Shown one piece after another: positions 2-20,520 of a stretch of DNA of 34,652 bases. The stretch covers positions 1 through 34,652 of the forward strand of contig PKTD01000205.1 in NCBI GenBank assembly GCA_002869315.1, read 5' to 3'. This DNA is from Marinilabiliales bacterium (GTDB lineage Bacteria; Bacteroidota; Bacteroidia; Bacteroidales; F082). How positions within the stretch are numbered: position 1 is the first letter of the stretch; each line of letters starts with the position of its first letter. The notes below the pieces were generated by a model, which was not told where the DNA came from, searched no databases, and saw only the letters and a list, made by a program, of their open reading frames with translations. A program made the translations under genes and the position numbers.

Positions 2-64
2 ATGAATTTGATAATAAATAACAATTGGTGGTGGCACAATAACTTATTCCATAGGGATAGTTAG
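2..64 (+). CDS. trpL: Putative trp leader peptide MNLIINNNWWWHNNLFHRDS* (20 aa)
   Basis: ATG at 2-4; three consecutive TGG codons at 26-34; TAG stop at 62-64; followed by a hairpin/T-tract and then trpB. The ORF is below the size cutoff of the supplied track. Confidence 0.75.
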   Translation: MNLIINNNWWWHNNLFHRDS

Positions 65-100
65 GTGTGATTTATTAATTGTTGGTAAATGATATTTAAA

Positions 101-129
101 GACGTCCCGTTTGGGTCGGCTTTTTTTTT
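101..129 (+). terminator. Putative attenuator terminator hairpin of the trp leader
   Basis: gacgtccc-gttt-gggtcggc imperfect stem (6 of 8 pairs) followed by nine T. A possible antiterminator pairing is GGGAT (54-58) with GTCCC (104-108). Confidence 0.6.
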
Positions 130-267
130 GATTAAAACTTAAATATAAACAGATGAAAAGTAAAATTCAATATTGGTTAAAAAAAGTAATCTTTCGATGG
201 CGTTTATCATTTTTCGAACCTGGAACCCTATAAATACAAATCATGATAAATTTTAAAATCGAAAAAG

Positions 268-1467
268 ATGAATACAATAACAATAGAAAAGGAAAATGAA
301 GTAAAACAATTTGATTCAATTAACGGAAGATTTGGTGAATTTGGTGGCATGTATGTACCACCTGTTTTAGAGTCGAAACTTTTAAATCTGGCAAGCGTTT
401 TTGACGAAATAAAAAATAGTAAAAAGTTTGAGGAGGAGTTTATATATTATTTAAAAACTTATGTAGGAAGGCCTTCTCCTCTTTACTATGCAAATAACCT
501 ATCTGATCTAGTGGGATCAAAAATATATCTTAAAAGGGAGGACTTAAATCATACTGGATCTCATAAAATTAATAATACTATTGGTCAGATATTAGTCGCC
601 AAACATATGGGAGCAACCGAGATAGTAGCTGAGACCGGTGCCGGTCAGCATGGAGTAGCTACTGCAACTGCAGCAGCATTATTTGGTATGAAATGTAAAA
701 TCTTTATGGGTGCCAAAGATGCTGAAAGGCAGAAAATGAATGTAAGCAGAATAAAGTTGCTTGGAGCAGATATGGTTCTAACTCATGAAGGCCGGGGAAC
801 ACTTAAAGACGCCGTCGATGCAGCCCTTGGATATTATATTGAAAACCCTGATGTTTTTTATTTACTGGGTTCACAAGTGGGGCCACACCCCTATCCGACA
901 ATGGTAGGATATTTTCAAAGCATCATTGGTAAAGAGGCAAAAAAGCAAATACTGGAAACAGAAGGCAGACTACCGGATAATTTGTTTGCATGCATTGGTG
1001 GAGGTTCAAATGCCATTGGTCTTTTTGGGGATTTCCTTTATAACGAAAATGTTTCCATATTTGCTGCAGAAGGTGGTGGTGAAGGTGCAATCCTAGGCAA
1101 AACAGCAGCTACTTTGAGCCTGGGTAAACCTTGAGTATTTCAGGGCACTTTCTCTTATGCTTTATCGGATGAGAACGGTGATGTTTATCCTACACATTCC
1201 ATAGCGGCAGGTTTGGATTATCCTGGAATAAGCCCGCAACATGCTTTGCTAAAAGACAGCAACCGGGCTGAATATCATTTAATTACTGACCAAGAAGCTA
1301 TAAAAGCTTTTAAAATACTATCCTCTCTGGAGGGAATTATCCCAGCAATAGAATCATCACATGCTGTGGCTTTAGCATTAAAAGTTTTGAAAGATAAACC
1401 TGATCAAATTAGCATTATTAACCTTTCGGGAAGAGGTGACAAGGATGTGGAGAGGAATTTGATGTAA
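268..1467 (+). pseudogene. trpB: Tryptophan synthase beta chain, interrupted by an in-frame TGA at 1132-1134
   Basis: N-terminal ORF (GRFGEFGGMYVPPVLESK, PLP lysine motif HTGSHKINN) and C-terminal ORF lie in the same frame. Read-through gives ...[42 protein letters not shown]..., about 400 codons, typical full-length TrpB. Confidence 0.9.
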
Positions 1468-1551: not shown

Positions 1552-3648
1552 ATGCAGTGGTCGGTACGCCCTTTCGCTCGATTGATAATTTTTTATATTC
1601 TCGGCATTTTAGCCGCAAATAAGTTATTGTTTATTGAAATCAGGTTTGTTCCGACCATTGCTTTTTTTGTCCTCCTGCTTGCAGCATCACTACTCATCAT
1701 CATATTTTTTAATTCTTATAAAAACCGTTGGATTGCAGGAATGGTATTCTATGGATTAAGTTTTTTTGCAGGCTTTTACAATCTTTATTTTACAAACAAA
1801 CCTCTTTATCAGCAAATTGAAAACTCAGAAAATAAAACATATATAGGTGAAATTATTAGTGATATTTCTTTTACGGATAAGTCTTTAAGGTTTGAACTTA
1901 TCATTCATGAACTTAATTCAGATACGCCAGTTGAGGCAGAAAAAGTAATAGCCTATTTTAAACCCAACCAAAAAAGTATGGAACTTGTTTATGGCGACAA
2001 GATAATTCTTAATGCAATACCTCAACTTATTAATAACAAAGGGAACCCCGGAGAGTTCGATTATAAATCCTATTTAATTCACAAAGGAATTTCAAAATCC
2101 ATTTACCTTAAACCCAATGATTGGAAATACTTAAAACACGACCCTTCTAACTTACTTATAGCATACGCAAGATCCATAAGGAGAAACTTATTACGACGAC
2201 TTGAAACTCATTTGCTTTTCAAAAATACCTATGAGGTAGCCGCAGCAATACTGGTGGGCTACGACGTATTAATGGATGACGATACAGAAAAAAGTTATGT
2301 TCATGCAGGCGCCATGCATATTTTGTTTGTATCAGGTCTCCACGTTGGCGTAATATTCATCTTAATGAGTTTACTTCTGAAGTTTATGTTAAAAACTAAA
2401 ACCACAAGATTTTTGAGAATACTCTTATTGCTTACTAGTATATGGTCCTATGCTTTACTGACAGGAATGTCACCATCTGTTCAAAGGGCTAGTATTATGT
2501 TCTCATTTTTTGTAATTGGCCAAGGCTTGAAACGACCCAAAGACTCTTACAATACTTTGGCTGCTTCTGCTTTTGTAATGCTGGCAATAAATCCAAATTT
2601 ATTATTTCATGTTGGGTTTCAACTTTCTTATGCAGCAGTATTAGGAATAATTTCAGTTTACCCCTCACTTTACAGGATGCTCTATTTTAAAAATAAAGTA
2701 GTTGATTATTTTTGGTCGATAATATGTGTATCCATAGCAGCACAACTGGCTACCTTTCCAATAGGAACACACTATTTTCACTACTTCCCTAATTACTTTT
2801 GGATAACCAACCTATTAGTAATTCCAGCATCTTTTGGCATAATAGTCTCCGGATTTATATACTTTATTTTCAGTTGGGTACCATATATGTCAGCATTTTT
2901 GGGCGCAACAACTTCTTTATTGGTATTGTTGTTAAATTATTTGGTTGCCTTTGTGGAGTATTTACCGTATTACGGGACAGATAATATTTATATGCCATGG
3001 GTGAATACTATTCTTATTTATCTGATAATTATAATGCTTTTTCATATGCTAATGTATAAAAGAATCAGGCTTTTGATTTATTTTGCCTCTGTTTTATTAA
3101 TGCTGATTGGCATAAACACTATCGTTAAATACAAGCACAGCAAAAACTCAAAATTTATTATTTATAATGTTAATAATCAGGATGTGATTCAATTCGTTGA
3201 TGGAGTAAATTCATATGTTTTAACATCGGAAAATAAAGGAAATAAGAAGAAAATAAAGGAATTTGTCATAAGTCCATACAATATTAAAATCGGAATTAAA
3301 AATGAAATGATTTTTGGTTTAAATGAACTTTCAAAATACGATACTCCAAATTTAATGATTAAGGGTAATTTCATACAATTTAATCAAAACAGATTTATGA
3401 TTTTGTCGGATAAAGATATTTTCACAACCTCCGACAGTCTTAATAAACTAAAGGTAAACACTCTGATAATTACCGGAAAACACAAACTAGATTTAAGTTT
3501 GTTGAAATCATGTATTTTTTTTGATGAGATAATTATTTGTTCGGGTGTTCCCTATTGGAAAAGGAGGAAGTTGATTGAAGAATGTAAGATTCTAGAAATA
3601 AAGTATATTGATATTAAAAAAGAAGGAGGGAAAGTTTTCGAAATTTGA
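1552..3648 (+). CDS. comEC: ComEC/Rec2-family competence protein (DNA uptake channel)
   Basis: Multi-TM protein with motifs HAGAMHILFVSGLHVG, LLTGMSPSVQRASIM, and N-terminal OB-like region GNPGEFDYKSYLIHKGI. Confidence 0.88.
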   Translation: MQWSVRPFARLIIFYILGILAANKLLFIEIRFVPTIAFFVLLLAASLLIIIFFNSYKNRWIAGMVFYGLSFFAGFYNLYFTNKPLYQQIENSENKTYIGEIISDISFTDKSLRFELIIHELNSDTPVEAEKVIAYFKPNQKSMELVYGDKIILNAIPQLINNKGNPGEFDYKSYLIHKGISKSIYLKPNDWKYLKHDPSNLLIAYARSIRRNLLRRLETHLLFKNTYEVAAAILVGYDVLMDDDTEKSYVHAGAMHILFVSGLHVGVIFILMSLLLKFMLKTKTTRFLRILLLLTSIWSYALLTGMSPSVQRASIMFSFFVIGQGLKRPKDSYNTLAASAFVMLAINPNLLFHVGFQLSYAAVLGIISVYPSLYRMLYFKNKVVDYFWSIICVSIAAQLATFPIGTHYFHYFPNYFWITNLLVIPASFGIIVSGFIYFIFSWVPYMSAFLGATTSLLVLLLNYLVAFVEYLPYYGTDNIYMPWVNTILIYLIIIMLFHMLMYKRIRLLIYFASVLLMLIGINTIVKYKHSKNSKFIIYNVNNQDVIQFVDGVNSYVLTSENKGNKKKIKEFVISPYNIKIGIKNEMIFGLNELSKYDTPNLMIKGNFIQFNQNRFMILSDKDIFTTSDSLNKLKVNTLIITGKHKLDLSLLKSCIFFDEIIICSGVPYWKRRKLIEECKILEIKYIDIKKEGGKVFEI

Positions 3649-10881: not shown

Positions 10882-13791
10882 TTAGTAAACTAATAACTTC
10901 TTTATTACAGACTTTTTCACCCCTTCAAACTTCAGAAAATAAATTCCTTTTGGATTTTTTGTTTCCAGTTTTATATCAAATTTATTTTCCAGTTGGTACA
11001 AATTAACTTCACGAATTTCCTGACCAAGATTATTAAGAAGTTTCACAAGTTCGTAGCCATGATTATCAGTTAGTTCGATATGTACAACTCCATTTGAGGG
11101 ATTTGGATAAACCTTTACTAAATCATCATCAATTATTTCCTCAAACCCCACAAACTGACTAACGCTCACATTATCAATAAACATAGGGTTACCATAAGCA
11201 TTATATGATTCGAAGGCTATACGAACCTGAGGTTGACCTGTCCATTGTGATAAATCAATATTTATACATTCTGCTCCCCAACCTGCAAGACACCAATCGA
11301 GTGATGATTCTGGCCAGAAATCAGGATTTAATTGAGCGGTTGCAAAATTACCAGTACCATCTTCTGCATCAGCGAAGACTCTAGTCCATGTATCACCACA
11401 ATCAGCACTTACCATAACTATCAAAGAATCCGGATCTTTAGTATGACGTTTTGCATAGGCATGTTCAAATTCAAGAACAGCACTGCTCATACCATTGAGA
11501 TTTAAAGGAGGTGTTATCAATCTGTCGCGGCCGCCCATAGGAAAATAATTGTTGAATTCTATTCCGGCTGCTGTAAAACCCGGATCATTTCCATTTACTG
11601 AATAAATATCCCAGGTAACTTCTCCATCAGGATTTTCAACCTGCCATAATTTTGTTTTAAAACCATCATCTTCAAAATTTTCCATAAAATAAGGAACAAA
11701 ACCTCCGACCATTATTTCGTCTTCTTTTGTCAGGCTTGCTGAACCATTTAAATTGGAAGTAGTTAACTTAACAGAATAATATCCAACTTCATCAAAAACA
11801 AGTTTAGGATTCTGACTTTCAGCAGTATATCCTTCCACAAAACGATAAGTATTCGGGGTAATTTCCCAACTCCATGCTATTGGACTGTAAATTGATTTAT
11901 CATAAAGAGTGATAGTATCAGCAAGGCAACCAAAGCGATTATCAACTTCGAAGTTTACTTCCGGAAGTATACTACTGCTAACTGTAATATACTCCGTCTT
12001 AGTAATCGTATTTTCACCTGCTGTATTTTGTGTAGTTAAACTAACACTATAAACACCTTCAGTTTCATATTTTATGTTTTCAGGATTCTGCACGTTTGAC
12101 GTGGATGGGTTTGCACCTTCAAAAGTCCATTCCCATTCAGCAGGAATGCCAACAGTTTCATCAAAAAAGTTCACAGTTTCACCTGTAGGGATTATTTCAT
12201 TATCAACTGTAAAGTTTGATTCAGGAACCTGAGTAAAGTCGAGAGAAGCAATTTGTGTTCTCCAAGACCACCCTCCATTTGTCCATTCAGTTGTAAACCA
12301 AAATGTTGTTCCATCGGATGGATCCACTGTCATACTTGAATAATCTCCCCATCGTGAAACACCTGTTTGCGACTTCTCCCCTTGCAGGATAGTAGTTTCT
12401 TCCACATCCAATACTCCAAGGCCCATTGAGGCTCCTGCCAATTGTCCGGCAAACCTTATGGAAGGATACGTAAACGGGCCGGAAACAGAATATCCCAGAG
12501 CAATATCACCATTATCATTCATGGCTATACTTCCCATCCATCGATTGTTACCATCATCAGGAGCAAATGTTCCTTCCTGATAAATTTCCCATTCACCTTC
12601 AGGGTATTTGCGCACTTCATACCATTTTACTCCTGCCCTGCCATTATCATCCACACGAACTGTATGGTTGGTAAGCATTACTTCATATTCTTCGAAATTT
12701 CGATATTGCAAACGATACATCAATCGGCCAGCCAAAGCGTCTAGTTTTTGTGATGTTCCTCTTTGTGATATACTAATATTGTTAGTAAAAAATTGCTCAG
12801 TAGACAAGGGAGTTAGAAAATTAGTTGTGGAATTTTCAGGATTTTCCCAGTCAATATCTACTTCCCAAATTCTGAGTGAATTATTACTCATATTCATAAA
12901 ATATTGTGGTGAACCTTCCGGAGGAGGAGTTGCACCATCAGCATCGGCAGGAAGCAGACTTCCAAAAGCAGTTCCTAAGTCAAAGAATACCATTTGGGCA
13001 TCGGGGTCACCTGCTAGCATCTTATCCCTATCAACAGCGCATATACCGCCACCAGCCCAATTCCAGTTATGAAACTGGTTGATACTGAAATAATAGGCGT
13101 CGTTCCAAATACCAAATTTAGGATAATCATTAAGGTTATCAAACTCATAGGCATATCTATACCACTCTCCTAAAGGATCGGGAGTTGCAGAAACAGCAAT
13201 CAGTTCATAATATTTTCCATTATTGGTGCTTAAGGCGAACTGGGTTGCTATCCATCTATCGGCATATTCATCGTATACAACTACTGGATCTCCATCATTG
13301 GCATTATCGAATGGTTGCCCATCATCAAAACCTTCCCATAGAGTTTGATTATCGGCAGGTGACATTAACTGATTACCATCCTTATCCCAAATTGAAAATG
13401 CTAGGTTTATCATTTGAAAGTAATGATTTGGACCTACATCGCCATCAGTATAAGGAGGTGCTACACCACTGAGATTAGGAACGCCCGGAAAATTATTTAC
13501 TATTTGAGGTGTTGCATATCCCTCACTTACAGTCTGTAATTTCAACTTCGATTTATCAAATTCCCCTTCATTTTCAAAATCATCCAAAAAATTATCAAAG
13601 TTTTTGATAATACTGTTTTTCCATGATCTCTCTCTCACTCCGGGAGGGATAGGCTCCACTTCCGAAAGTTTTTGAGACACATCGAAATGCACCGGTTTTG
13701 AAATTTTCTTTGGACTTAATGTTTGTGAAAACAAATTTTGATTTAATACTGCTATTCCTAAAACTACTAACAGCGTAAATAATTTTCTCAT
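10882..13791 (-). CDS. Giant secreted protein: propeller-like head, two PKD domains, jelly-roll/choice-of-anchor-like module, T9SS type A sorting tail
   Basis: Signal peptide; DGDVGPNHYFQMIN...RWGDYSSMTVDPSDGTTFWFTTEW; WEWTFEGANPSTSNVQNPENIKYETEGVYSVSLTT; FEDDGFKTKLWQVENPDGEVTWD...FIDNVSVSQF; VYPNPSNGVVHIEL...KKLLVY. Confidence 0.8.
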   Translation of the reverse strand: MRKLFTLLVVLGIAVLNQNLFSQTLSPKKISKPVHFDVSQKLSEVEPIPPGVRERSWKNSIIKNFDNFLDDFENEGEFDKSKLKLQTVSEGYATPQIVNNFPGVPNLSGVAPPYTDGDVGPNHYFQMINLAFSIWDKDGNQLMSPADNQTLWEGFDDGQPFDNANDGDPVVVYDEYADRWIATQFALSTNNGKYYELIAVSATPDPLGEWYRYAYEFDNLNDYPKFGIWNDAYYFSINQFHNWNWAGGGICAVDRDKMLAGDPDAQMVFFDLGTAFGSLLPADADGATPPPEGSPQYFMNMSNNSLRIWEVDIDWENPENSTTNFLTPLSTEQFFTNNISISQRGTSQKLDALAGRLMYRLQYRNFEEYEVMLTNHTVRVDDNGRAGVKWYEVRKYPEGEWEIYQEGTFAPDDGNNRWMGSIAMNDNGDIALGYSVSGPFTYPSIRFAGQLAGASMGLGVLDVEETTILQGEKSQTGVSRWGDYSSMTVDPSDGTTFWFTTEWTNGGWSWRTQIASLDFTQVPESNFTVDNEIIPTGETVNFFDETVGIPAEWEWTFEGANPSTSNVQNPENIKYETEGVYSVSLTTQNTAGENTITKTEYITVSSSILPEVNFEVDNRFGCLADTITLYDKSIYSPIAWSWEITPNTYRFVEGYTAESQNPKLVFDEVGYYSVKLTTSNLNGSASLTKEDEIMVGGFVPYFMENFEDDGFKTKLWQVENPDGEVTWDIYSVNGNDPGFTAAGIEFNNYFPMGGRDRLITPPLNLNGMSSAVLEFEHAYAKRHTKDPDSLIVMVSADCGDTWTRVFADAEDGTGNFATAQLNPDFWPESSLDWCLAGWGAECINIDLSQWTGQPQVRIAFESYNAYGNPMFIDNVSVSQFVGFEEIIDDDLVKVYPNPSNGVVHIELTDNHGYELVKLLNNLGQEIREVNLYQLENKFDIKLETKNPKGIYFLKFEGVKKSVIKKLLVY

Positions 13792-13842
13792 AGAAAAATT
13801 GATTTTTGTAATAATTCAGCAATGGATATAATTAAACTGAAA

Positions 13843-16740
13843 TTAATAAACAATAATTTTCTGGCTTTGCAATATGTCGGATCCCCGCAATCTTACAAAA
13901 TATATACCCGACTCAAGTTCTTCATTAATCTCAATCTCGCTAGTGTCGGACCCATTAAGTTTGTATGCACTAATTACTTTACCAAGCATATCCACAAGTT
14001 CAACGCTATTATATTTTGTTGAATTTAATATCCTGACAGTAAAACTTCCATCATTTGGATTAGGATAAACCTTTAGTTCCTCAGAAGTTAAGGCCTGGTT
14101 TTCAATACCCACGAATTGACTTATATGAACATTATCGATATAGATTGGGTTTCCATTTGCATTATATGATTCGAAGGCAATTTTTATATTCGATTTTCCG
14201 GCGTAATTATCAAGGTTTACTGAATAGCAATCGCTACCATAACCGGCTCCACACCAATCTTCCAGGCTGGAAGGCACAAAACCATCGGTTGTGAGAGGAT
14301 GAGTGGCAAAACTTCCATTTCCATCATCGCCAAGAGATAGCAGGCGGGTCCAGGATATACCGCAATCTTCAGAAATTAATACAATAAGAGAATCACTTAT
14401 CTGAGCATAATGCTTTGCATATGCATGGTCGAATTCAAGACTAGCATTAGTCATTCCTTCCATATTTATCGGAGGTGAAATAAGTCTGTCTCTTTCAGTA
14501 AAATCATAATATTCCAGAAGATTGATTCCAGCAGCATAACTACCATGGCCAAAACCTTCAAGAGGAAGGATTTCCCAGGTGATTTCTCCGTCAGGATTAT
14601 CTATTGTCCAAAATCTCAAATCCAGTCCTTGTTCAAAATCCTCATTAAAATAGGGCTGAAAACCTCCTGCATTAATAATTTCAAATTTTGTCAATTCTGA
14701 TGAACCATTTAAATTCCATGCAGTTAATGTTATAGAATAAATCCCTGCCTCATCAAAAACAACATCAGGATTCTGACTAAACTGGTCGGTACCATTTACA
14801 AAAGTAACTGTTGATGGATTAAATGACCATTCCCATTCCATAGGCATATAAAGTGATTCATCTTTAAACTCCATAACTTCACCCAAGCAAACAACTGACT
14901 TATCATAATCAAAATCAACTTCTGGTAAAATTGTTGAGCTGCTTGTAATAAAATCGCTTTTTACTAAAGTATCAGATCCATATATATTGGAAGTTATTAA
15001 TTTCACATCAAAACTACCTTCAGTTTCATATACTATATTTTCAGGATTTTGCTCTGAAGAATTTTCTGTACTAGCACCTGCAAATGTCCATTCCCATGAA
15101 CTTGGAACTCCAAGTGTATTGTCCTGGAAATTAACCGACTCTCCTACAGGGATAAGAATATTATCAGCTTCAAATTCAGTTTCAGGCTGAAAAGACGGAC
15201 GCATATATGCCCACCATGTTCCCCACTTTGTGGCGTTTGGTGAATATTCTGCATACTCCTGAATAGTCCAGAAATCCAAATCATTAGCAGGATCTACACA
15301 AGTATTTGAATAATCTCCCCAACGATTTCTTCCACCTCCAAAAGTTTTATAATAAGGACTAAGTCCATCCTTATACTGATAATACTCTCGCATGGAGTTT
15401 TCTTCGTCATAATGCGATTTATAAGCATATCCAGCACTTGCATATTGTGTTTCAGAAAAAACATCAAAACCAATAAACACATCCTCTTTAGAGTTAACTG
15501 CTATGGTAGGGAAAGCAAAACTAAATACATTGCTCGGATCATCAACGCGACCTCTTTCCAAAATATTACCATCAGTATCTAAACACCACCACTGAACTGC
15601 TGTGCGCTGTGGATTGTTAACAGGCAAAAATACATGGTGTACTGCCCAGAGTTTACCATTTCTGTAAATTACATTTTCCATGCGTGAATCAACTGAGTTT
15701 ATTAACTCACTACTACCTAACTGAGGCAGGAAGTTTCCATAATAACCAGCACCATTTTCCCAGGGCTCTGGAATTCCAATGGCACCCTCATATTGAAATT
15801 GAGGATCATCCAATGGCCCATCAAGTTTAAATTTCTGAATATAACCGTAGCCACCATTATTACCATTACTGGTAGAAATCAAATATTGATCTTCTGCCTC
15901 ATTATCGTAAGTTATAGAAGGCACCAATGTAAATCCCTGTGAAGTAGCAAAACGTGTGAAATCAACATTATCTTCACCATTATAAGCAGCCATTTTGTCG
16001 AAAACAAATACAGTTCTGTAATAATCATTTCCAAACATATTTCCACTAATAGTAATCCATTTTTTATTGAACCCAATACTCGGGTAGTCAAACCATGTTT
16101 GATTGGATTCATCCGGATCTATCCAGTACATATTCCACTCGCCAAGCGGGTCAGAAGTTTGGCTTACACCAAGATAAAGTTTTGAGTCAACTGAATTAGA
16201 GCCACTTGGAGTAACCATTATCCAGCGATCATTATGAGGATCATAAATAATTTTAGGGTCGAAAGTACCACCGTTTCCTGGCAAAGCATTCCACCAGTTT
16301 CCGAGTGAAGTATTAAACAATGTGTTGCCAATTCTATCTTGTATTCTCACACCGGTATTCAAAGTAATCATTAGGTGGTCAGGTCCAACACATCCGTTAA
16401 CATCCGGTGGTATTGAACTGCCATTATCTTCAAGAGCATGAAAAGTAGTATCCGGAGCTGGGGAAACCTCTCTTGTGGATTTCGGTGTTTTATAAGTTCC
16501 TGGTTCTTCTTTATAAATTATTTTACTCTCGTCAAAAGTCCAGTTAGGAACCTCCCAATTTTTGTTAGGTACTTTAAAGTTTAAACTAGGTTCGTTGTCA
16601 GGTATACCATCAAGTTGCTTAACATTAAGCTTGTAGTTTTTAGAAGTTTTTCCTTTAATTACAGTCTTGTTCTGCGCACTAATAAATTGAAAGGAAAAAA
16701 TGGCTAATAATAAAATTGAAAGTCTAGTAAATTTTACCAT
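13843..16740 (-). CDS. Giant secreted paralogue of 10882-13791: propeller-like head, PKD domains, jelly-roll-like module, T9SS sorting tail
   Basis: PPDVNGCVGPDHLMITLNTGVRIQD...RWGDYSNTCVDPANDLDFWTIQEY; WEWTFAGASTENSSEQNPENIVYETEGSFDVKLIT; RFWTIDNPDGEITWEI...IYIDNVHISQFVGIEN; VYPNPNDGSFTVRI...QKIIVY. Confidence 0.8.
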   Translation of the reverse strand: MVKFTRLSILLLAIFSFQFISAQNKTVIKGKTSKNYKLNVKQLDGIPDNEPSLNFKVPNKNWEVPNWTFDESKIIYKEEPGTYKTPKSTREVSPAPDTTFHALEDNGSSIPPDVNGCVGPDHLMITLNTGVRIQDRIGNTLFNTSLGNWWNALPGNGGTFDPKIIYDPHNDRWIMVTPSGSNSVDSKLYLGVSQTSDPLGEWNMYWIDPDESNQTWFDYPSIGFNKKWITISGNMFGNDYYRTVFVFDKMAAYNGEDNVDFTRFATSQGFTLVPSITYDNEAEDQYLISTSNGNNGGYGYIQKFKLDGPLDDPQFQYEGAIGIPEPWENGAGYYGNFLPQLGSSELINSVDSRMENVIYRNGKLWAVHHVFLPVNNPQRTAVQWWCLDTDGNILERGRVDDPSNVFSFAFPTIAVNSKEDVFIGFDVFSETQYASAGYAYKSHYDEENSMREYYQYKDGLSPYYKTFGGGRNRWGDYSNTCVDPANDLDFWTIQEYAEYSPNATKWGTWWAYMRPSFQPETEFEADNILIPVGESVNFQDNTLGVPSSWEWTFAGASTENSSEQNPENIVYETEGSFDVKLITSNIYGSDTLVKSDFITSSSTILPEVDFDYDKSVVCLGEVMEFKDESLYMPMEWEWSFNPSTVTFVNGTDQFSQNPDVVFDEAGIYSITLTAWNLNGSSELTKFEIINAGGFQPYFNEDFEQGLDLRFWTIDNPDGEITWEILPLEGFGHGSYAAGINLLEYYDFTERDRLISPPINMEGMTNASLEFDHAYAKHYAQISDSLIVLISEDCGISWTRLLSLGDDGNGSFATHPLTTDGFVPSSLEDWCGAGYGSDCYSVNLDNYAGKSNIKIAFESYNANGNPIYIDNVHISQFVGIENQALTSEELKVYPNPNDGSFTVRILNSTKYNSVELVDMLGKVISAYKLNGSDTSEIEINEELESGIYFVRLRGSDILQSQKIIVY

Positions 16741-16881
16741 GAAAATATTGTTTAATTGCTTTAATAATGATTACTCTGCAAAAATAGCAATAATGTAAAA
16801 CAATTGTAGCCCAAGGTATAAACCCCGAACTTCAATTGTTTTAAACCCAAAGAAAGTGTTTATTCTTCCGGGATTTATAAT

Positions 16882-19800
16882 TTATTGTATTATCAACTTT
16901 TCGGTTGATGATGTTTTAGAATTTCCAATATTGATAATATATATGCCTTTTGCCAGGTTTGCTATATCGATAAGGCTTTGGCCGGAAGTCAATTCCTGTT
17001 CAATAATTTGTTTACCCTGCAAATTAGAAATTGTTAGTTTATAATTATCTACCTCTTTTATAATTACAGTAATATTGTCTCTTGCTGGATTTGGGTAAAC
17101 TAGTAGTTCAGTATTATTATCAGTGTCATAAAGGCCAAGTGTATTACTTATTTCCACATTATCGATATAGAGGTTATTTCCATACTGATTGAAACTTTCA
17201 AACTGAACCTTAATATTTCCCATTCCAGACCACTGATTCAGGTCGATAATTGGTTTAGAAGCGCCATATCCACTACCAGCCCAGTCTTCAGTAATTGCAG
17301 GTGTAAAAAATGAAGTTTGTGGTTCTGTAGTTTCAAAAACTCCTTCACCATCAGGTCCGTTGGCATAGACTCTTGTCCATGTTTCTCCACAATCTGAAGA
17401 AACTTTAACGATCAAAGAATCCTTTTGATTATAACGCTGAGCATATGCATAGTCGAAAGAAAGTAATACATTATCGTAACCAACAAAACTCAATAATGGT
17501 GAGTTCATTTGATCTCTGTTACCCATATTTGTATAATCATAGAAGTTCATCCAGGCAGCATTCGTCATGCCTGAAGCCCCTTCAACCTCTGCTATATCCC
17601 ATGTTTTACTACCATCAGGATTATTTACTTCCCATCCAGAACTACCAAGGCTAACAGCATCAAAGCCATCTAAATACGGGATATTCTGACCACCTACTTT
17701 CACATAGTCATCTTTAGTCAATTCCGACTCTCCAGCCGAGTTTGTGACCTGTAAACTAACTGTATACATTCCTGCTTCAGAAAAACTAACTTCAGGATTT
17801 TGAGAATTTGCATCTGTTCCGTTCATAAAACTCACTGTAGCGGGTTCAAATGTCCATTGCCATGAAACAGGACAACCCTGTGAAAGATCAGTAAATACTG
17901 AAGATTGTGTACTACAAATAACACTATCAACAGTCATAAAATCCACCTCAGGCAACATTGCGGAATTAACTGTAATATAGGATGTTACAGTTTTTGTATC
18001 TTCACCTGCCGGGTTGGTGACAGTAAGAGTAACGGCAAAAGTTCCCTCTTCAGGATATTGAATATTTGTAGGGTTCCTATCAGTTGAAGTAGAAGGCGTT
18101 GCACCTTCGAAAGTCCAGTTCCATGAATGAGGAACACCACTTGATTTATCAAAAAAGTTGATCATACAACCACCAGGAACATCTGTTTCATCTGACTCAA
18201 AATCGGCTAAAGGGGTGCCATAATAAGAAGGTGATGACCATAAACCACGACCATAAGTTGATGTTTTTACAGCATCATTAGCCGGATTATTTTCATCAAT
18301 AAAAATTTCAATTTCAGTTATATTAGCCGAAACAGGGAAATTATTTGAAAATAATATCCATTCTGACATTGTTGCATTTTTATAATAAATTCCGGCATCA
18401 GTTCCTACATAAAGTCCTTCATTATCATTTTTATAAAACTCAATTGTGTTGGTAGAAACATTAGGTATATTCAAAGTAATATCATCCCAGTTAAGACCTC
18501 TGTCAGAAGATTTAAAAACTTTTGAATTAATGGTGATATAAACTACATCTTCATCGTAAGGATTAGTTTCAACATCGGTGGCATTACCACTACTAGGAAC
18601 CTGATCAGAAATATCTACCCAAGTAGGATTTGAACTTCCCAAATCATCAGTACGATATAAATTACCATTATATTTTGAAACATACATTATATCATTATTT
18701 GCCTCACTCTGCTCTAATACATTACAATTTCCGCCTCCGATGTTTGTAATTTTCTCCCATGTTACATTCCATGCCCGTATGTTAGTACTTTTCCATACAT
18801 TTTGCATTCCGACATACATAGTCTCATTTTCAGTCACATCCAGTGCAAACGGAGTTACCCAATCACCCGACTCACCAATTCCACCAGAAATACTTCCCTG
18901 ATTGGAATTATTTACTATTCTGGAAATGCTTTGGCCATTATAATACTCTCCATAGGCATATGTGTCATCTGTATGATCATATGTGCAATCCATTCCATCT
19001 CCACCCATAACAGTTAGGAAACCATTCTCAAGTGAGGTAGCAGAACCATTATCCTGATAACCATTCATTACCTTATTTACATCAGTTTTAGCCTGACCTA
19101 TTTTGTATATTTGAGAAATTGCAAGCCCAGAGGTAAGTTCAGTATAACTTACACCTCCATTATCACTAACATAAACACCACCATCATTACCTACGTATAA
19201 CTTTCCATCTGTTGGAGAAAATTCCAGAACATGTTGATCGGCATGAACAGCAGGTTTGCCACATCCACCATACCAATGTGAACTCATTATCCAACTGGAT
19301 CCACCATTTATTGAGTACCATATATTTACACCACCTGAATAGATAATGTCAGCATTATTTGGGTCTGCAGCCAAGTCCAGATCATACCATCCCTGGCCTC
19401 CTGAACCTCCATTACAATCCCAGGCCATGATATTAGGTGTAGATGATTTTAGAACAAAATTTAGACCTGCATCATCGGAGCGGTATATTCCTCCAAAAGC
19501 ACTTCCACTTGTAGTGTGAAAATAAACCACATCAGGATCTGCAGCACTAACGGCAATAACACCGCGTGAGGCTGATCCAATACCTGCTGTAATCTGAGTA
19601 AAAGTCTCTCCCCCATCAGCAGAGCGATAAAAATTACCACTTCCTGAAGCAAAAACAATATTAGGGTCATCTGCTTTGAATACAACTTCTTTAATATTTC
19701 CGGTTCTTACCTGATACCAGTTTGCTCCTGCATCAATAGTTTTGTATAGGCCTCCGCTGGTAGCAGCAAAAATCATATTGTTGTTGGTAGGGTGCATTAG

Positions 19801-20520
19801 CAATCTGCCAACGGTAGTATTACCCATTCCTGTATTCCATGGAACCCATGTTTCTCCGGCATCAGTACTTTTAAATACTCCCATTCCAGGAGCATCACCA
19901 GCATCACGGTCGCCTGTACCCATATAAATTAATGATGTATTAACATAATCAACTGCAATGGAAGAAACTCCCAAAGTTGGTAAATTATCAGTATGGCTCA
20001 CCCATGTATTTCCGCCATCCTGACTTATCCAGAATCCACCAGCAGGTGCTCCAGCATAAATAATATCTGGATTAACAGGGTCGAAGGCTAAAGCATTTAC
20101 CCTTCCATTTCCATTTGGCTGACCAGTACCAGAATTACCTGGTTTTTCTATTGGGCCCAGATTTATCCAATCGCCTTCAAAATCATTATCTCTGTTTGCA
20201 TAAGATTGCTTAAATTTTTGAAACTCATCAAAAACCTCCGATCCCATTCTTCTGGTGCCATCGTCATTTAATCGTGATCGCCAGTGGTATTCCCACCTTT
20301 TAAATGGTTTATATCCACATCCTCTTGTAATTTCTCTTCCTTCCCAATATTGGTTGAAGGCATCCACGGTTTCGTAAAAATTAGCAGAAGGATCCTGCAT
20401 CATTTCTATCCAATAAGGAGTTTCCTTATAATTCTTTTCGGTTTGGGTTGTTTGTGCACTCATTTGCATGCTAACTGAAAACAATATAGCAATAAGTACT
20501 AAAAATAATGATTTTTTCAT
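16882..20520 (-). CDS. Giant secreted protein: sortilin/BNR-like beta-propeller, PKD domains, jelly-roll-like module, T9SS sorting tail
   Basis: Repeated ISQDGGNTW, FKSTDAGETW, YKTIDAGANW, YRSADGGETF, YRSDDAGLNF; WNWTFEGATPSTSTDRNPTNIQYPEEGTFAVTLTV; VNNPDGSKTWDI...LYIDNVEISN; VYPNPARDNITVII...EKLIIQ. Confidence 0.85.
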   Translation of the reverse strand: MKKSLFLVLIAILFSVSMQMSAQTTQTEKNYKETPYWIEMMQDPSANFYETVDAFNQYWEGREITRGCGYKPFKRWEYHWRSRLNDDGTRRMGSEVFDEFQKFKQSYANRDNDFEGDWINLGPIEKPGNSGTGQPNGNGRVNALAFDPVNPDIIYAGAPAGGFWISQDGGNTWVSHTDNLPTLGVSSIAVDYVNTSLIYMGTGDRDAGDAPGMGVFKSTDAGETWVPWNTGMGNTTVGRLLMHPTNNNMIFAATSGGLYKTIDAGANWYQVRTGNIKEVVFKADDPNIVFASGSGNFYRSADGGETFTQITAGIGSASRGVIAVSAADPDVVYFHTTSGSAFGGIYRSDDAGLNFVLKSSTPNIMAWDCNGGSGGQGWYDLDLAADPNNADIIYSGGVNIWYSINGGSSWIMSSHWYGGCGKPAVHADQHVLEFSPTDGKLYVGNDGGVYVSDNGGVSYTELTSGLAISQIYKIGQAKTDVNKVMNGYQDNGSATSLENGFLTVMGGDGMDCTYDHTDDTYAYGEYYNGQSISRIVNNSNQGSISGGIGESGDWVTPFALDVTENETMYVGMQNVWKSTNIRAWNVTWEKITNIGGGNCNVLEQSEANNDIMYVSKYNGNLYRTDDLGSSNPTWVDISDQVPSSGNATDVETNPYDEDVVYITINSKVFKSSDRGLNWDDITLNIPNVSTNTIEFYKNDNEGLYVGTDAGIYYKNATMSEWILFSNNFPVSANITEIEIFIDENNPANDAVKTSTYGRGLWSSPSYYGTPLADFESDETDVPGGCMINFFDKSSGVPHSWNWTFEGATPSTSTDRNPTNIQYPEEGTFAVTLTVTNPAGEDTKTVTSYITVNSAMLPEVDFMTVDSVICSTQSSVFTDLSQGCPVSWQWTFEPATVSFMNGTDANSQNPEVSFSEAGMYTVSLQVTNSAGESELTKDDYVKVGGQNIPYLDGFDAVSLGSSGWEVNNPDGSKTWDIAEVEGASGMTNAAWMNFYDYTNMGNRDQMNSPLLSFVGYDNVLLSFDYAYAQRYNQKDSLIVKVSSDCGETWTRVYANGPDGEGVFETTEPQTSFFTPAITEDWAGSGYGASKPIIDLNQWSGMGNIKVQFESFNQYGNNLYIDNVEISNTLGLYDTDNNTELLVYPNPARDNITVIIKEVDNYKLTISNLQGKQIIEQELTSGQSLIDIANLAKGIYIINIGNSKTSSTEKLIIQ

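Follow-up and report, generated by a model that had tools for sequence, protein, structure and literature searches.

In Enterobacteria, the tryptophan attenuator (RF00513) controls the trpEDCBA operon; its leader ORF starts from a Shine-Dalgarno site and no second ORF is present. In Sinorhizobium meliloti, the trpL attenuator is leaderless: its mRNA begins with the ORF for the leader peptide. The S. meliloti peptide peTrpL is the subject of PMC7298713. The closest known system to the locus described here is the Bacteroid-trp RNA (RF01692), the Bacteroidete tryptophan peptide leader RNA (Weinberg et al., 2010, PMC2864571), which belongs to the same phylum and in which tryptophan genes are likewise preceded by a leader ORF that has Trp codons in a row and by a terminator region. 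With the enterobacterial attenuator, the locus shares a leader ORF containing Trp codons, a terminator and, as a prediction here, an antiterminator. The window, by which we mean the whole analyzed stretch of 34,652 nucleotides, gave no match to RF01692 at E 1, and the best locus of the same solitary-trpB type (L182) scored 38.8 bits against a gathering threshold of 49. Since the window and every solitary-type locus missed this threshold, we did not file them as members of the family. The window also had no match to RF00513, for which the best solitary-type leader (L183) reached 35.9 bits against a threshold of 41. An Rfam scan of the window yielded a tRNA at gathering score and, at E 1, just a chance-level match to Phe_leader besides.

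The window begins with the leader ORF1 (2–64, forward strand; MNLIINNNWWWHNNLFHRDS) of 20 codons, which ends with TAG at 62–64 and contains three consecutive Trp codons (TGGTGGTGG, all TGG, 26–34), the proposed stall site. An intrinsic terminator follows at 98–129 of the forward strand, with its hairpin stem at 98–123 and a run of nine T at 121–129, and farther downstream lies trpB, encoding the beta subunit of tryptophan synthase (TIGR00263) and thus a gene of tryptophan metabolism. An earlier note on this DNA had described the 20-residue ORF with its three TGG codons, the stop and the hairpin with nine T upstream of trpB, all of which are borne out at these positions, and had recognized in them the layout of classical attenuation. 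We consider it very probable that the locus is a ribosome-mediated transcription attenuator that restricts expression of trpB to conditions in which charged tRNA-Trp is scarce. The transcript would begin at or beside the ATG of ORF1. With plentiful Trp-tRNA, the ribosome would pass the three Trp codons, reach the stop codon and cover approximately nt 54–76, and the 98–123 hairpin would then end transcription. When Trp-tRNA is short, the ribosome would halt at the Trp codons, GGGAU (54–58) and the inner helices would form, the antiterminator would take GUCCC (104–108) away from the terminator and the polymerase would go on through a second small ORF, termed ORF2, into trpB.

The predicted antiterminator (54–108, forward strand) consists of helices of 5 bp (54–58/104–108), 8 bp (61–68/92–99) and 9 bp (70–78/82–90). 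The pairing of GGGAT with GTCCC proposed earlier is present in the model, but it is the outer part of this larger structure and not, as had been assumed, an antiterminator of only 5 bp. With a ribosome modelled at the first Trp codon, the antiterminator fold of the window leader has an energy of -21.3 kcal/mol and occupies the 5' arm of the terminator. Compared with dinucleotide shuffles, folding of the window leader gave z-scores of -2.5 (nt 1–145) and -3.4 (ATG to terminator), and the mean over 27 homologous leaders was -5.1. In the modelled leaders of 27 loci, the median probability that the 5' arm of the terminator is sequestered was 0.56 with the ribosome stalled at the Trp codons versus 0.11 with the ribosome at the stop codon (Wilcoxon 7e-8), although some of this difference arises trivially, because more sequence is masked in one case than in the other. 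Against dinucleotide shuffles, fold energy was non-random with a combined p of 8e-5 and arm sequestration was marginal, with a combined p of 0.04 and 0.33 for the window alone; both combined values are optimistic because related rows are not independent. For L013, L016 and L017, the model predicted no useful switching. The classical layout is thus supported by the conserved Trp-codon ORF, the covarying terminator and the modelled difference in sequestration, and the caution with which the RNA model was originally offered still applies, given that sequestration barely exceeds that of shuffled sequences. Anatomy and conservation lend attenuation as such strong support, and the precise RNA switch, with its putative alternative-pairing step, is a model.

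The ATG of ORF1 lies only 1 nt into the window because the contig ends there. Another contig of the same genome, C210, ends with 99 nt that are identical to positions 1–99 of the window (L111, 950–1048), as is typical of contigs that adjoin each other in a k-mer assembly graph. The sequence upstream of the window, taken from C210, reads TATATTTG, then CTTC and then ATG, so that the Bacteroidota -7 box TATATTTG ends exactly 4 nt upstream of the start codon in this overlapping contig. In a flavobacterium, the box TAnnTTTG spans -12 to -5 relative to the transcription start (PMC9723704); the spacing found here predicts that transcription begins with the A of the ORF1 ATG as +1. ORF1 is therefore predicted to be leaderless, with transcription starting at or next to its ATG. 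The box or a TTTAG-like variant ended 4–6 nt upstream of the start codon in approximately 17 of 25 homologs with upstream sequence (counted by eye), and the distance between box and ATG was mostly 15–32 nt in operon-type Bacteroid-trp leaders. Transcripts of this kind are rare in the phylum: 5' UTRs below 10 nt make up about 3.7% in B. thetaiotaomicron (PMC7366714) and leaderless mRNAs 5.5% in F. psychrophilum (PMC9723704). Should the leaderless start hold, the locus would provide a clear example of leader-peptide translation beginning at the extreme 5' end, in a phylum with few leaderless mRNAs. Contigs of two species pairs (the window, 1–99, and L111, 950–1048; L011, 1–102, and L015) end at the trp leader, because approximately 100 nt are identical there between the related genomes, and trpB differs by 10–17% in these pairs. 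Between the window and L001, which belongs to the same genus, the first 99 nt are identical, and trpB shares 83% identity, uninterrupted identity there never exceeding 26 nt.

To assess conservation, relatives of trpB were fetched, the close ones with approximately 60–89% identity. A phylogenetic tree joined the solitary TrpB proteins, that of the window included, in one clade (support 100/100) that excludes the operon TrpBs found in the same order; 28 relatives of this clade have upstream sequence. ORF1 with a run of two or three Trp codons was present in 27 of the 28, one of them with the run degraded to WRW (L017/G026), and no Trp-codon leader was found in L019. The terminator was present in 26 of the 28, giving 27 loci when the window is counted, and was not found in L026; it usually lies 24–36 nt downstream of the leader stop codon. 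The terminator stems vary strongly in sequence and yet remain paired, with many compensatory base changes and up to five types of base pair at a single stem position. The earlier note had stated that a lack of conservation of the Trp-codon ORF or hairpin in relatives would refute its reading; both are conserved, and the reading was not refuted. At the level of the compared sequences, the arrangement of ORF1 and terminator is not due to chance, a point settled by its conservation. A decaying copy is seen in G026 (L186/L118/L222) and L017, where WWW has changed to WRW with an early stop, the last Trp codon of ORF2 is TGA and trpB contains a stop codon.

As the earlier note stated for the window, trpB is solitary and followed by a comEC-like gene (1552–3648, forward strand). 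The solitary state holds throughout the relatives, none of which has a trp gene downstream of trpB, and comEC occupies this position only in the window and L001–L003, with various genes in the others, and is not part of the system. Farther along the window, on the reverse strand (10882–20520), three consecutive genes encode large secreted proteins that look like paralogs, have similar C-terminal regions and, by eye, resemble type IX secretion cargo with PKD-like repeats. In a search of 61 genomes, trpE, trpA and trpC were absent from all 10 carriers of a solitary-type trpB within the family, with 14 of 14 control genomes positive for each gene. The more distant carrier G056 lacks the three genes as well, and only G060 combines a solitary-type trpB with a complete trp operon, so that trpE, trpA and trpC are missing from 11 of the 12 carrier genomes checked, which are mostly MAGs, most of them more than 90% complete. 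Without trpA and trpC, the trp pathway provides no internal indole, which makes the salvage of external indole the natural reading, and we infer that the stand-alone TrpB most likely converts external indole and serine to tryptophan. Use of indole by TrpB is known from other bacteria (PMC11085991). At the locus described here, Trp-responsive attenuation would be tied to indole salvage rather than to de novo synthesis, which suggests that Trp-auxotrophic Bacteroidota switch on the use of external indole only under Trp starvation. Leaders resembling Bacteroid-trp RNA were additionally observed upstream of a trpB2-type gene, encoding another stand-alone TrpB, in L109 (G049) and at G014:C119:8482-8600.

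Between the terminator and trpB lies ORF2 (153–233, forward strand; MKSKIQYWLKKVIFRWRLSFFEPGTL), with Trp at residues 8 and 16 and the core IxxWxxxxIFRW. ORF2 comprises 14–29 codons, its ATG is located 18–34 nt downstream of the terminator, and it was clear in 25 of the 27 loci, L122 being divergent and L123 doubtful. In 23 aligned cores, neither Trp residue varies; the first is missing from ORF2 of L014 and the second from that of the decayed L017. Synonymous differences outweigh replacements, with a pN/pS of 0.43 overall and approximately 0.27 in IFRW, rough values owing to saturation. A pattern search over the order gave mostly scattered matches and was superseded by a profile search within the family. 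The profile, built from 14 copies, found 19 matches below E 1e-4 in 173 genomes, one per genome and each directly upstream of a solitary trpB, and two of these (G458 and G461), which were outside the earlier set of loci, show the same leader and ORF2. The next 11 matches (E 0.002 and up) were inspected and have no trpB. The L018-type row of the profile was one residue shorter than the genome sequence, which does not affect the separation of matches. Downstream of the terminator, folding is no better than chance (mean z -0.15 versus -5.1 for the leaders), which rules out that the ORF2 region is an RNA structure and places the constraint on the peptide or its translation. Judged from the aligned copies, ORF2 is constrained at the peptide level. 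An overlapping ORF starting from an internal ATG in CGATGG was ruled out because the Arg codon varies (AGA, CGT) and TGG does not, and an amphipathic helix found no consistent support. No ORF2-like ORF is described in the part of the literature covered by our search, so that ORF2 is apparently a conserved mini-gene not described before. With 14–29 residues and an occurrence limited to solitary trpB, it is a clearly delimited candidate for a novel regulatory peptide, and one that is easy to test.

The function of ORF2 could be regulatory, if tryptophan acts in two steps, with ORF1 and the terminator governing transcription and the Trp-containing ORF2 adding translational or nascent-peptide control ahead of trpB translation, through a ribosome that stalls at its Trp codons or is arrested at IFRW. 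The two Trp residues so close behind the terminator, the excess of synonymous changes, the WWW of L122 and the WW of L022 and L025 are in line with such a role, as is the decay of ORF2 along with the leader and trpB in G026. However, the RNA downstream of the terminator is unstructured, the trpB start is not consistently masked and the distance between ORF2 and trpB ranges from 24 to over 100 nt, so that no route from stalling on ORF2 to trpB is visible; together with the missing first Trp in L014, this leaves two-step control possible but on balance doubtful. Constraint on the peptide, strict linkage to solitary trpB with absence elsewhere and the basic character of most copies would fit a microprotein that acts with TrpB, for instance by replacing the missing TrpA, or at the membrane, the attenuator simply controlling a two-gene unit. 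We consider such a microprotein rather unlikely, as ORF2 has merely 14–29 residues, a variable C-terminal half and an inconsistent amphipathic moment, and its core becomes ENRW instead of IFRW in one subclade. Only tentatively do we propose the complete picture of a lone indole-salvaging TrpB in Trp-auxotrophic Bacteroidota under a two-peptide leader, in which a leaderless Trp-codon ORF would control termination and the IxxWxxxxIFRW peptide would then serve either as another checkpoint for Trp or as a microprotein linked to TrpB.

The copy in the window itself looks impaired. Its terminator stem has mismatches at A102/G119 and T105/T116, both of which are paired in all close relatives, and an energy of -8.4 kcal/mol versus about -18 to -20 in L001–L003; the imperfect stem mentioned in the earlier note is peculiar to this copy. 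The trpB frame (268–1134, forward strand) stops at an in-frame TGA (1132–1134), codon 289, which encodes an invariant Gly in all homologs compared. The frame then runs to the usual stop, the homologous frame extending to approximately 1467, and L001 has a full trpB of 399 codons (TIGR00263, E 5.9e-158). Reading of TGA as Trp is not likely, as relatives have Gly and TGA ends other genes of the window. With its weakened terminator and truncated trpB, the window copy probably retains little or no regulation. It may be a decaying locus that now regulates nothing, although we consider this somewhat less likely than not: the two mismatches and the TGA, the lack of trpB in G001 of the same genus and the joint decay of leader, ORF2 and trpB in G026 point in this direction, but ORF1 and ORF2 are intact, assembly errors may account for single-base changes in a MAG and the branches leading to the window and to L001 carry nearly the same numbers of silent and replacement substitutions (54/19 and 54/20, respectively), which argues against long relaxation and leaves a long-term pseudogene unsupported. 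The damage to codon 289 and to the stem is either a recent mutation, a strain variant or an error of the MAG assembly. The earlier reading as an attenuator thus stands, but it had missed ORF2, the conservation of the solitary state among relatives, the prediction that ORF1 is leaderless and the apparent damage to the window copy.

Several features set the locus apart from described leaders. Operon-type matches of RF01692 precede trpE or trpB operons or trpB2 and lack ORF2. In L103 (G042, minus strand), two successive mini-ORFs with Trp runs (MNTNRLNNYWWWQFTYSFYREEGKLS and MNNSNLHIWWWHNSGIKP) were observed upstream of trpE, possibly representing tandem attenuators. The trpB motif (RF04312; PMC11109978) shares the name and a terminator but is a riboswitch candidate of Firmicutes and Fusobacteria, and identity was ruled out by a best score of 44.3 bits in the order against a threshold of 59. 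The leader of Salmonella mgtCBR (PMC3641672) likewise has two short ORFs before the regulated gene, but it responds to different signals and its ORFs are proposed to work through stem-loops, whereas the RNA around ORF2, past the terminator, is unstructured. With S. meliloti trpL, the locus shares the position of the leader ORF at the mRNA 5' end, here predicted, but phylum and regulated gene are unrelated. Compared with the known attenuators, what is new is the target, a solitary and probably indole-using trpB, the predicted leaderless leader ORF and the presence of ORF2.
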